NCBI GenBank assembly: GCA_947474645.1
Contig: CANJJD010000004.1
Location: 1 to 64,000 of the forward strand
DNA: 64,000 nucleotides
Direction: 5' to 3'
Origin: Alphaproteobacteria bacterium
GTDB lineage: Bacteria; Pseudomonadota; Alphaproteobacteria; Micropepsales; Micropepsaceae
Part shown: positions 8,180 to 41,892 of the stretch, one piece after another
How positions within the stretch are numbered: the first letter of the stretch is position 1
How the letters are laid out: each line of letters opens with the position of its first letter
Notes under the pieces: model-generated
Told to the model about the DNA's origin: nothing
Databases searched by the model: none
The model's input: the letters and a program-made list of their open reading frames with translations, nothing else
Program-made: the position numbers and the translations under genes

Positions 8180-8623
8180 ATGCGGTCTGTCATTGCCCTG
8201 GCCTTGCTTGCGTTCGTCTCGTTGCCCGCGCGGGCCGCGGACCCCGCCGCCGTGGCCAGAATCCGGGGCGGCATCGTGGATTGCGTGGGCTGCAACCTGG
8301 CCGGGGCCGATCTTTCCAACACCTGCGTCAAGGACCATGACCTGCACGGGGCAGACTTCACCGGCACCAACGCCACCCTGATGTGCATGTCCTTCGCCAA
8401 TTTCACCGGCGTCAGCTTTCGCGGCGCCGAACTGTCGGGCGCCAATCTGGCGGGCGCCAAGATGGATGGCGCGGACCTGACCGGCGCGGGGACCTCAATC
8501 ACATCCTTCCTGGGCACCGACCTGCGGCGCGTGAAGGGCCTGACCCAGCAGCAACTGGACGTGGCCTGCGGCGATGCCGCGACCAAGCTGCCGCCGGGCC
8601 TGAAGGTCCATACCTGCCAGTAG
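8180..8623 (+). CDS. Exported pentapeptide-repeat protein
   Basis: A 147-residue protein with a signal peptide (about 1-19, ending ARA) followed by pentapeptide repeats of the A(D/N)LxG type: NLAGADLSNT, DLHGADFTGT, NFTGVSFRGAELSGANLAGAKMDGADLTGA (about 38-106). These form a right-handed quadrilateral beta-helix. Cysteines at both ends (CVGC and the C-terminal CGD...HTC) may be disulfide-bonded in the periplasm. The specific function is unknown. It stands alone, convergent with gcvPB across an intergenic repeat. Confidence 0.85.
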   Translation: MRSVIALALLAFVSLPARAADPAAVARIRGGIVDCVGCNLAGADLSNTCVKDHDLHGADFTGTNATLMCMSFANFTGVSFRGAELSGANLAGAKMDGADLTGAGTSITSFLGTDLRRVKGLTQQQLDVACGDAATKLPPGLKVHTCQ

Positions 8624-8644
8624 CGGCCGCTCGCCCAAGCTCGC

Positions 8645-8695
8645 GGCGTTCGCCCCTCTCGCATGTCCACTGGACATGCTCGCGCGCTATGCGCG
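8645..8695 (+). repeat. 51-bp three-hairpin dispersed repeat, copy A
   Basis: Three consecutive hairpins: GGCG-TT-CGCC (8645-8654), a 9-base palindrome around one base (8661-8669/8671-8679), and CGCGC-TAT-GCGCG (8683-8695). A second copy lies inverted at 41753-41803. The two align without gaps over 51 bases (40 identical by my count). Six of the eleven differences form three compensated pairs in the stems. It lies between two convergent genes and may also act as a terminator or mRNA end stabiliser. Confidence 0.8.
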
Positions 8696-8703
8696 CCGGG
8701 TTC

Positions 8704-10302
8704 TCACTCCGCTGCTTCCTGCAGCGGAGCGGGCTTCCAGCGCAGCACCGGCTTGCGGGCAGCGGCGGTCTCGTCCAGGCGGCGGCGCGGCGCCAGGTGC
8801 GGCGCCCCGGCAAAGCGGGCCGTCTTCTTGGCCACCGCTTCCTCGGCCAATGTGTGCAGCACATGGATGAAGCGGTCCAGCGACTCCTTGGATTCGGATT
8901 CGGTGGGTTCGATCAGCATGGCGCCATGCACCACCAGCGGGAAATACATGGTCATGGGGTGATAGCCCTCGTCGATCATCGCCTTGGCGAAGTCTAGGGT
9001 GGTGACGCCGGTCCCTTCCAGGAAACTGTCATCGAACAGCGCCTCGTGCATGCAGGGACCATCACCAAACGGCGCGCTCATCACGTCCTTCAGCGAGGCC
9101 AGGATATAGTTGGCCGACAGCACGGCATCTTCCGACGCCTGGCGTACGCCGTCGCGGCCATGAGACAGCATGTAGGTCAGGGCCCGGCTGAACATGCCCA
9201 TCTGGCCGTGGAAGGCACACATGCGGCCGAATGGCCTGGCGCCGTCCGGGGCCGCCGCCATGTCCTCGATCAGCTTGAGGCCCTTGCCGTCCGCCACCAG
9301 CAGCGGAATGGGAGCGTAAGCGGCCAGCCGCGCCGACAGCACCACGGGACCGGCACCGGGGCCGCCGCCGCCATGCGGGGTGGAAAAGGTCTTGTGCAAA
9401 TTGATGTGCATGGCGTCGATGCCCAGGTCACCGGGGCGCACCTTGCCGGCAATCGCATTAAAATTGGCGCCGTCGCAATAGAAATAGGCCCCCGCGTCAT
9501 GCACCGCCTTGGCGATGTCGATGATTTCGCCTTCGAACAGGCCGCAGGTGTTGGGATTGGTCAGCATGATGGCCGCCACGTCCGGACCCAGCTTGGCCTT
9601 GAGCGCCTCGGCATCGACATGGCCATTGGGCTTGGCGGGCACTTCATCCACCGTGAAGCCGGCGAAAGCGGCGGTGGCGGGGTTGGTGCCATGGGCCGAT
9701 TCCGGCACCAGGATGCGCTTGCGGTCTTCACCGCGCGCCGCGATGGCGGCGCGGATGGCCAATAGCCCGCACAGCTCGCCATGGGCGCCCGCCTTGGGCG
9801 ACATGGCCACCGCCGGCATGCCGGTCAGGGTGGTGAGCCAGTTCATCAATTGCGAGATCAGTTCCAGCGCGCCTTGCGTGGTGGAAGCCGGCGCCAGGGG
9901 ATGCAAATCGCCGAAGCCCGGCAGCCGCGCCATCTTCTCGTTCAGGCGCGGATTGTGCTTCATGGTGCAGGAGCCCAGCGGATAAAGACCGCTGTCGATG
10001 GCGTAGTTCTTGCGCGACAGCCGCACATAATGGCGGATCACTTCGGGCTCGCTGAGCCCCGGCAGGCCGATGCGGGCGTTGCGGCGCATGCCGCCCAGCT
10101 TGTCGTCGCCCACTTTCACGTCGGGCAGGTCGACGCCAACGGCGCCGTGATCCAGTTCGAAGATCAACGCTTCTTCATGGTCCAGGCCCCGGTCGCCGGA
10201 GACGGTTGCCAGTTCTTCCGGCGTGACGGTGCCGGGCGCGATAGGCTGGCGGCGATTGGGATCGCCGGCGCCGGTGGGACGGCCCTGGTTGTTCATGCTC
10301 AT
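8704..10302 (-). CDS. gcvPB: Glycine dehydrogenase (decarboxylating) subunit 2
   Basis: The C-terminal half of the split P-protein of the glycine cleavage system, a cytoplasmic PLP enzyme that decarboxylates glycine and loads the aminomethyl group onto lipoyl-GcvH. Length 532. The PLP lysine is K304 in HINLHKTFSTPHGGGGPGAG; GLYPLGSCTMKHNP (about 106-118) and AHGTNPATAAFAG are also family hallmarks. Its ATG shares one base with the stop of gcvPA (TGATG). It is last in the operon, ending about 80 bases before the pentapeptide gene on the opposite strand. Confidence 0.97.
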   Translation of the reverse strand: MSMNNQGRPTGAGDPNRRQPIAPGTVTPEELATVSGDRGLDHEEALIFELDHGAVGVDLPDVKVGDDKLGGMRRNARIGLPGLSEPEVIRHYVRLSRKNYAIDSGLYPLGSCTMKHNPRLNEKMARLPGFGDLHPLAPASTTQGALELISQLMNWLTTLTGMPAVAMSPKAGAHGELCGLLAIRAAIAARGEDRKRILVPESAHGTNPATAAFAGFTVDEVPAKPNGHVDAEALKAKLGPDVAAIMLTNPNTCGLFEGEIIDIAKAVHDAGAYFYCDGANFNAIAGKVRPGDLGIDAMHINLHKTFSTPHGGGGPGAGPVVLSARLAAYAPIPLLVADGKGLKLIEDMAAAPDGARPFGRMCAFHGQMGMFSRALTYMLSHGRDGVRQASEDAVLSANYILASLKDVMSAPFGDGPCMHEALFDDSFLEGTGVTTLDFAKAMIDEGYHPMTMYFPLVVHGAMLIEPTESESKESLDRFIHVLHTLAEEAVAKKTARFAGAPHLAPRRRLDETAAARKPVLRWKPAPLQEAAE

Positions 10303-13170: not shown

Positions 13171-13362
13171 CCTTCTGTCATGGGACCTGAGAGTTTTCCC
13201 CGGAACCATCTTCCATGGAAGACGGGCGAGTTACCCCTTCGGCGGAAACAGAAATTCCTGTTTCACTTTCCAGAAGTTCATCACCCGATCGCGGTCCGTT
13301 TGCCTGAGAGTTTCCGGGGTGGTTGCTCCTTCGGCGGCCTTCTTAAAGACGCTCTCCCGCGA
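13171..13362 (-). ncRNA. Tandem glycine riboswitch upstream of gcvT
   Basis: Two glycine aptamers in series on the minus strand. Aptamer 1 (about 13359-13290) has CGGGAGAG, the conserved GCCGCCGAAGGAGCAACC and AACTCTCAGGCAAACGGACC. Aptamer 2 (about 13277-13171) has CTTCTGGAAAGTGAAACAGG, GCCGAAGGGGTAACTC and AACTCTCAGGTCCCATGAC, closed by CTTCTG pairing with CAGAAG. These are the hallmark segments of the gcvT motif. The 44 bases between the aptamers and the ATG have no T-run, which argues for control of translation rather than a terminator. Confidence 0.95.
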
Positions 13363-13475
13363 GGGATCGTGTGCTGGCCACGCCTGCAACGCCATCCGGC
13401 GGACAGGAATGTTGCAGAGCATCATAAGGGGGGCCAAAGACGAGTCAACGAAACCGGCGAAAGCGCCGCAGTTAC

Positions 13476-40806: not shown

Positions 40807-41745
40807 ATGACCGCCAAATCGCAAGCCATACCGTTGGATGCCGTACCCGCAAGCTGGGTGGAGCATGCGCCGCCGCGCCTCCAGCCTTGGCTGCGGCTAG
40901 CGCGGCTGGACCGGCCGATCGGCACCTGGCTGCTGTTCTGGCCCTGTGTCTTCGGGTTGATCCTGGGCGCCGCCGCCGATGAGCGCCGCTTCCTGGAATG
41001 GCGCGACGTCTATTATGTCGCCCTGTTCGCCATCGGCGCCCTGGTGATGCGCGGCGCCGGCTGCACCTTCAACGACATCATTGACCGCGACATTGATGCC
41101 TCGGTGGCGCGCACCGCCGGCCGGCCCATCCCGTCGGGCGCCATTACGGTGCGCCAGGCGGCGCTGTTCCTGGTGGCGCAATGCCTGGTGGGACTTGTGA
41201 TCCTGTTGCAGTTCAACTGGTTCGCGGTGGCGCTGGGCGCCGCTTCGCTGCTGCTGGTCGCCGCCTATCCCTTCATGAAGCGCATCACCTGGTGGCCACA
41301 GGCCTGGCTGGGCCTGACCTTCAACTGGGGCGCGCTGCTGGGCTTTGCCGCCCAGACCGGCCGCCTCGATATCGGCGATGCGATGCTGTATGTGGGCCTG
41401 ATCTTCTGGACCCTGGGCTATGACACCATCTATGCCCACCAGGACAAGGAAGATGACGAACTGATCGGCGTCAAATCCACCGCCCGCCTGTTCGGCAATG
41501 ACACGCGCAAATGGGTGCTGCGCTTTTATGCCATTGCCTTCACCCTGATCCTGGCAGCGGGCTTCACCGAGCATACTGGCTGGGCGTTCGGCTTCATCAT
41601 GCTGGCCGCGGGCGCGCATCTGCTGTGGCAGGTCAAGCGGCTCGACATAAACAGCCCGACCAACTGCCTGGCCGTGTTCCGCTCCAACCGTGAAACCGGC
41701 GCGCTGATCGCGCTGGCCTTCCTGCTGGCGAGCTGGCTGGGGTGA
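40807..41745 (+). CDS. ubiA: 4-hydroxybenzoate polyprenyltransferase
   Basis: A 312-residue integral membrane prenyltransferase of ubiquinone synthesis, joining the polyprenyl chain to 4-hydroxybenzoate. RLDRPIGTWLLFWPCVFGL, the first Asp-rich motif GAGCTFNDIIDRDIDASVARTAGRP, and the second TLGYDTIYAHQDKEDDELIG are diagnostic. The start is ATG 40807. A UbiD-type decarboxylase, a later step of the same pathway, is encoded at 44776-46299. Confidence 0.96.
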   Translation: MTAKSQAIPLDAVPASWVEHAPPRLQPWLRLARLDRPIGTWLLFWPCVFGLILGAAADERRFLEWRDVYYVALFAIGALVMRGAGCTFNDIIDRDIDASVARTAGRPIPSGAITVRQAALFLVAQCLVGLVILLQFNWFAVALGAASLLLVAAYPFMKRITWWPQAWLGLTFNWGALLGFAAQTGRLDIGDAMLYVGLIFWTLGYDTIYAHQDKEDDELIGVKSTARLFGNDTRKWVLRFYAIAFTLILAAGFTEHTGWAFGFIMLAAGAHLLWQVKRLDINSPTNCLAVFRSNRETGALIALAFLLASWLG

Positions 41746-41752
41746 GCCGCGT

Positions 41753-41803
41753 CATGCGAAGCATGTGAGCAGGTCCAGTGGACCTGCGAAAGCGGCGAAC
41801 GCC
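41753..41803 (-). repeat. 51-bp three-hairpin dispersed repeat, copy B
   Basis: The inverse-orientation copy of the element at 8645-8695: hairpin 1 at 41794-41803 (GGCG-TT-CGCC on the minus strand), the palindrome at 41769-41777/41779-41787, and hairpin 3 at 41753-41765 (CATGC-GAA-GCATG). The spacing between the hairpins is identical to copy A. It lies between ubiA and the LysE gene, in the 147-base gap that holds no other gene. Confidence 0.8.
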
Positions 41804-41892
41804 GCAGCGTCTGAGCGAAGCGAAGGCGCGAGGCCGGGACGATGCAATCGGCGCTCTTGCCAATGCGGGCACCACCGCCCAAGTTCACGCGT

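Follow-up and report, generated by a model that had tools for sequence, protein, structure and literature searches.

A REP-like palindromic element family of Alphaproteobacteria, probably mobile and inserted at stop codons

Why does one stretch of alphaproteobacterial DNA carry the same hairpin-rich sequence twice, on opposite strands and each time against the end of a gene? We analysed the whole 64,000-nucleotide stretch that holds both copies (the window), its host genome (2.64 Mb in 54 contigs, 99.6% complete) and related genomes. We think it probable that the two copies belong to a non-autonomous, REP-like family of palindromic mobile elements of Alphaproteobacteria, which would be inserted at stop codons and form a structured 3' RNA of the genes that they end.

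The window copies are composites of four helices

An earlier note on this DNA had described a 51-bp unit of three hairpins at 8645-8695 (+) and 41753-41803 (-). As it had said, the two sequences form an ungapped alignment when one is reverse-complemented, and our count agrees with it: 11 differences, six of which form three compensated pairs, one in its hairpin 2 (T-A to G-C) and two in its hairpin 3 (G-C to A-T and C-G to T-A). The 51-bp core is real, and hairpins 2 and 3 (here B and C) stand. The full element, however, is about 85 bases long and has four helices, two of which, a hairpin (A) and a closing stem (P1), the note had missed. Its hairpin 1 (GGCG-TT-CGCC) has to be given up as a conserved hairpin: none of its pairs changed on both sides, it did not exceed shuffled controls, and its bases are divided between A (3' strand) and P1 (5' strand). 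In the orientation used by the note, the element reads hairpin A, GTTC, 5' side of P1, hairpin B, hairpin C, 3' side of P1, CTCACC, with hairpin A itself built of a five-pair stem, TC, GC, a four-base loop, GC, TC and the stem again. The core GTCCACTGGAC occurs at just two places in the window (four hits, on both strands of the palindrome, against 0.6 expected).

We searched for further copies with two covariance models, R1, made from an alignment of 67 copies (A2), and R2, made from A3, an alignment of 36 copies that covers the full structure. Because the source copies of R1 had been chosen by a single hairpin-B sequence, conservation of B in that model is not evidence; A3 was made from R1 hits instead, and still leans somewhat on R1. 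The features of the two window copies are as follows.

8624-8707, + strand (orientation of the earlier note): copy 1, whole element; R1 match 8617-8707, 91.8 bits; empty orthologous sites
8626-8647, + strand: hairpin A of copy 1, GCCGC-TC-GC-CCAA-GC-TC-GCGGC, with a TC:TC tandem mismatch; fold, and pair covariation of columns 10-14 with 28-32
8652-8701, + strand: closing stem P1 of copy 1, GCCC (8652-8655) with GGGT (8698-8701), around hairpins B and C; fold and covariation (helix 3)
8661-8679, + strand: hairpin B of copy 1, GCATGTCC-ACT-GGACATGC (hairpin 2 of the earlier note); copy comparison, covariation and fold
8682-8696, + strand: hairpin C of copy 1, GCGCGC-TAT-GCGCGC (hairpin 3 of the earlier note); copy comparison, covariation and fold
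8704-8706, - strand: TGA stop of gcvPB, from the CTCAC end of the element (8703-8707); TAG in relatives with empty sites; empty and filled sites compared
8621-8623, + strand: TAG stop of a convergent pentapeptide-repeat gene (8180-8623), abutting the other end of copy 1; sequence and Pfam PF00805
41742-41838, - strand, far boundary near 41838 approximate: copy 2, complete element, flanked by ubiA and a lysE-type gene (both +); R1 match 41741-41832, 86.7 bits; empty orthologous sites
41807-41829, - strand: hairpin A of copy 2, of a different sequence type from that of copy 1; fold of the + strand
41746-41796, - strand: closing stem P1 of copy 2, GCCGC (41796-41792) with GCGGC (41750-41746); comparison of copies (helix 3)
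41769-41787, - strand: hairpin B of copy 2, GCAGGTCC-ACT-GGACCTGC; copy comparison, covariation and fold
41753-41765, - strand: hairpin C of copy 2, CATGC-TTC-GCATG; copy comparison, covariation and fold
41743-41745, + strand: TGA stop of ubiA, inside the GTGAG end of the element (41742-41746); empty and filled sites compared, UbiA PF01040

Both copies fold 2.4-2.9 standard deviations better than shuffled sequences on either strand. For copy 2 alone, the minimum-energy fold favours over P1 a competing hairpin akin to hairpin 1 of the earlier note, so an alternative fold is possible.

Across the 36 copies of A3, 89.0% of the pair cells were paired, against 70.1% in shuffled alignments and 32-42% in controls slid by 1-3 columns. 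Two-sided change was seen in 20 of the 28 pairs, and cells with a double change numbered 197, as opposed to 64 in shuffled and 20-35 in slid controls. Related sequences can inflate shuffle tests, and we therefore give more weight to the slid controls.

P1 was fully paired in 13 of the 36 copies; its usual form of incomplete pairing (15/36) places TC opposite TC beside GC pairs, and the two sides of this mismatch are associated (Fisher p 2e-6, with copies that are not independent). The same TC:TC module, TCGC...GCTC, is found in hairpin A of 27 of the 36 copies and in one hairpin-B subfamily (10/36). Its recurrence suggests that TCGC...GCTC is likely to be a recognition module, and makes it a concrete, testable candidate for a recognition signal.

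The element supplies the stop codon of the preceding gene

Read in the orientation of the gene, the element starts with GTGAG, and the TGA within it is a replacement stop, a feature absent from the earlier note. Whether or not the element is present, UbiA and GcvPB homologues terminate at the same residue in most of the species examined. At ubiA, sites without the element read GGC|TGATG, with the stop overlapping the start of the next gene, and sites with it read GGG|TGAG; the element here parts two genes that overlap in relatives. At gcvPB, where copy 1 sits between two convergent genes, the empty site GAG|TAG|GCTACTGG corresponds to GAG|TGA|GAACC...GCGGCC|GCTACTGG in the window.

Searching 13 sister genomes with concatenated flanks gave usable empty sites at seven more loci (L146, L149, L152, L159, L161, L162 and L172), after the alignments for L157 and two for L152 had been left out as too gappy. 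At five of these seven the native stop has given way to the TGA of the element, and at seven of nine once ubiA and gcvPB are included; L159 and L161 retain their native stop, with the element directly behind it. Among the 30 host copies found with R1, 19 have an ORF of at least 100 codons ending at offset -4 to +2 of the element end, compared with 1.5% of positions in a control that takes in every position of these loci and is not restricted to gene ends (binomial P about 1e-27). Some host copies have no long ORF end at the element boundary. In a second set, 15 of 35 copies have such an ORF end within four bases either side; annotated Rhizobium CDS ends also fall inside the element, and two copies (L157 and L305) carry TAA instead of TGA at the element end.

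This placement could reflect selection against other insertions alone, with no site preference of the machinery. Insertions within genes or promoters would be harmful, and GTAG-REPs likewise accumulate downstream of genes (PMC3733652). However, the junctions fall within a few bases of the stop and are not spread along the 3' spacer, and the element's own TGA replaces the native stop at seven of nine compared sites. We regard this explanation as quite conceivable, while leaning somewhat against it.

The family is patchily distributed and differs from described repeats

The exact hairpin-B pattern CGCANGTCCNNNGGACNTGC occurs at 12 places in the host genome, where R1 found 30 copies at E<1e-5 and R2 found 39 at E<=0.01 (with 23 in G024 and 27 in G060 at the same threshold). 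Since some of these 39, a few in number, are overlapping matches on opposite strands, 30-39 is a fair range. Many host copies have different hairpin B sequences about the same centre, and copies at different loci of the genome are up to 94% alike.

A tighter core was present in 26 of 69 genomes of the same genus, the host included. Outside the genus the element is patchy and restricted to Alphaproteobacteria in the genomes sampled: 18 of 398 genomes in a sample of the phylum matched R1 and 10 of 385 in a sample of the class matched R2, each count including the host. Relatives of the element are located on Rhizobium plasmids, and the exact core occurs in a collection of named genomes almost only in uncultured Alphaproteobacteria. 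BLAST with a close form of the element gave no match in the plasmid or phage collection, nor did one GAAATGG/GGTCC-type pattern match in viral contigs. Two matches in rumen Bacteroidota (L066 and L116) shared only the short core in a different context and were treated as chance. Two further loci (L127 and L141) have the B-C-P1 core within quite different flanks (TAAAGTCC, with CTCACCC further out) and are possibly part of a larger repeat. In a 1.9-Mb genome of the same class (G795), R2 gave ten matches that are weaker (41-48 bits) and shorter (70-86 bases) and may represent a related subfamily.

The earlier note had placed its layout in no named family. No named family matches as far as we tested, in comparisons with published descriptions of REP families and with Rfam. 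A search of the window against Rfam returned no family above gathering score at the element, the only match being a glycine riboswitch. That aptamer (RF00504, 66.5 bits) lies at 13282-13369 (-), near the gcv genes.

GTAG-REPs are found downstream of genes and between convergent genes, and their termini often give the flanking ORF its TAG stop (Di Nocera and colleagues, PMC3733652). The element shares with GTAG-REPs and REPINs the position at gene 3' ends and a terminus that supplies the stop, although its codon is TGA and theirs TAG. It differs in that it ends in GTGAG and a GGCCGG-like sequence, with no terminal unpaired GTAG, and in being a composite of four helices where theirs is one hairpin or a pair. 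CGTC-REPs are palindromic repeats that are common in Alphaproteobacteria near gene ends, have no dedicated transposase known, and consist of one 8-9-pair hairpin whose first two stem positions are A-T, with a loop of 4-5, a CCA tail and the CGTC tag (PMC3733652). The element is likewise an alphaproteobacterial palindromic repeat near gene ends, but it comprises the four helices A, P1, B and C and lacks a CCA tail; compared by description, the copies of A3 lack the CGTC-REP features. The element thus acts like a GTAG-REP at gene ends and is set apart from both GTAG-REPs and CGTC-REPs by the descriptions of their defining features. With MITEs (such as NEMIS, ERIC and RUP) it has in common that it is short, non-autonomous, palindromic and near genes, but its two termini (GTGAG... 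and ...GGCCGGG) do not form an inverted repeat. Target-site duplications, which would be the other MITE-like feature, were not clear at the compared sites; only L159 has CTAG on both sides.

The element might instead be a RIME or an A/B/C-type palindrome of Rhizobiaceae, here outside that family. RIMEs and A/B/C palindromes are annotated in S. meliloti and are repeated intergenic elements of rhizobia that share sequence and secondary structure (PMC2573895). The relatives on Rhizobium plasmids would fit such an origin, but at the sensitivity of our R2 search neither S. meliloti megaplasmid (pSymA, pSymB) gave a match. RIMEs (Rhizobium-specific intergenic mosaic elements) were reportedly first described at the chvI/chvG locus, and at this locus we saw no match in any of ten genomes from the family richest in R1 matches, a set without the S. 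meliloti and NGR234 chromosomes. Both tests are indirect, and we judge this identity unlikely.

Empty sites argue for insertion, and a proposed enzyme would act in trans

An alternative is a functional RNA at the 3' end of genes, regulatory or terminator-like, that selection maintains and that is passed on chiefly by descent. Such an RNA would also lie directly behind stops and between convergent genes, conserve its structure and fold stably. However, close relatives have empty sites at most loci examined, the neighbour genes are unrelated, near-identical copies lie at separate loci, and the signature of an intrinsic terminator (a G+C-rich hairpin followed by a T run) is absent from both window copies. 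We consider this alternative improbable. That two similar hairpins arose by chance with coincidental compensated differences would suit a window with just two copies, and can be dismissed in view of 30-39 copies in the genome and covariation far above shuffled and slid controls.

The empty sites, the dispersed near-alike copies, the unrelated neighbour genes and the fixed orientation argue for insertion, and a mobile, REP-like element remains the probable reading. The earlier note had favoured selection for structure or a structure-based spread, and had proposed a genome search and a covariation check; the many copies at gene ends, the strong covariation and the empty sites in relatives bear it out.

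GTAG-REPs and REPINs are mobilised by RAYTs. A Y1/RAYT transposase (PF01797) gave no match in the 99.6% complete host genome, where controls matched, and RAYT-type mobilisation from the host genome was rejected on this ground. Some REP hosts have lost their RAYT, and a missing Y1 transposase is by itself a weak point of difference.

We propose that an enzyme acting in trans would recognise the folded strand, likely through the TCGC...GCTC modules, and would insert the element at or beside stop-codon-like sites. Insertions elsewhere would be removed by selection, and those at stop codons would be silent, as they leave the last residue of the protein unchanged. The mRNA of the host gene would thereby gain a strong multi-hairpin 3' end; by analogy with REP elements, its hairpins may block 3' decay and protect the message, or may damp read-through. 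The strictest version, in which the insertion machinery itself directs the element to stop codons, its own TGA replaces the stop, and an enzyme unrelated to RAYT recognises the TC:TC hairpin module, seems to us doubtful, a speculative model more than an expectation.

After GTAG-REPs, the family offers another example of palindromic elements that bring a stop codon to the genes they terminate. Close relatives supply both empty and filled sites, from which its insertion specificity is directly readable, and being searchable with covariance models the family could help to find the machinery behind the movement of short palindromic repeats in those Alphaproteobacteria that lack RAYT.

The position behind ubiA holds element-like units with different hairpins in several species. 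Either the site could have been reused or modules could have been exchanged in place, and descent with in-place change could also give this pattern. Other sequences were seen at the same two genes. Just past the gcvPB stop, G060 (L226) carries another palindrome, GTCATTCCCGCGAAAGCGGGAATCCA, similar to a CGTC-type REP. Past the ubiA stop, the insertion in G019 (L195) occupies the same position and is a longer composite with several additional hairpins, and G010 and G068 (L186 and L193) have a second palindrome, GTCGCTAGCGTCAGCGTAGCGCGAC, in the loop of hairpin B.
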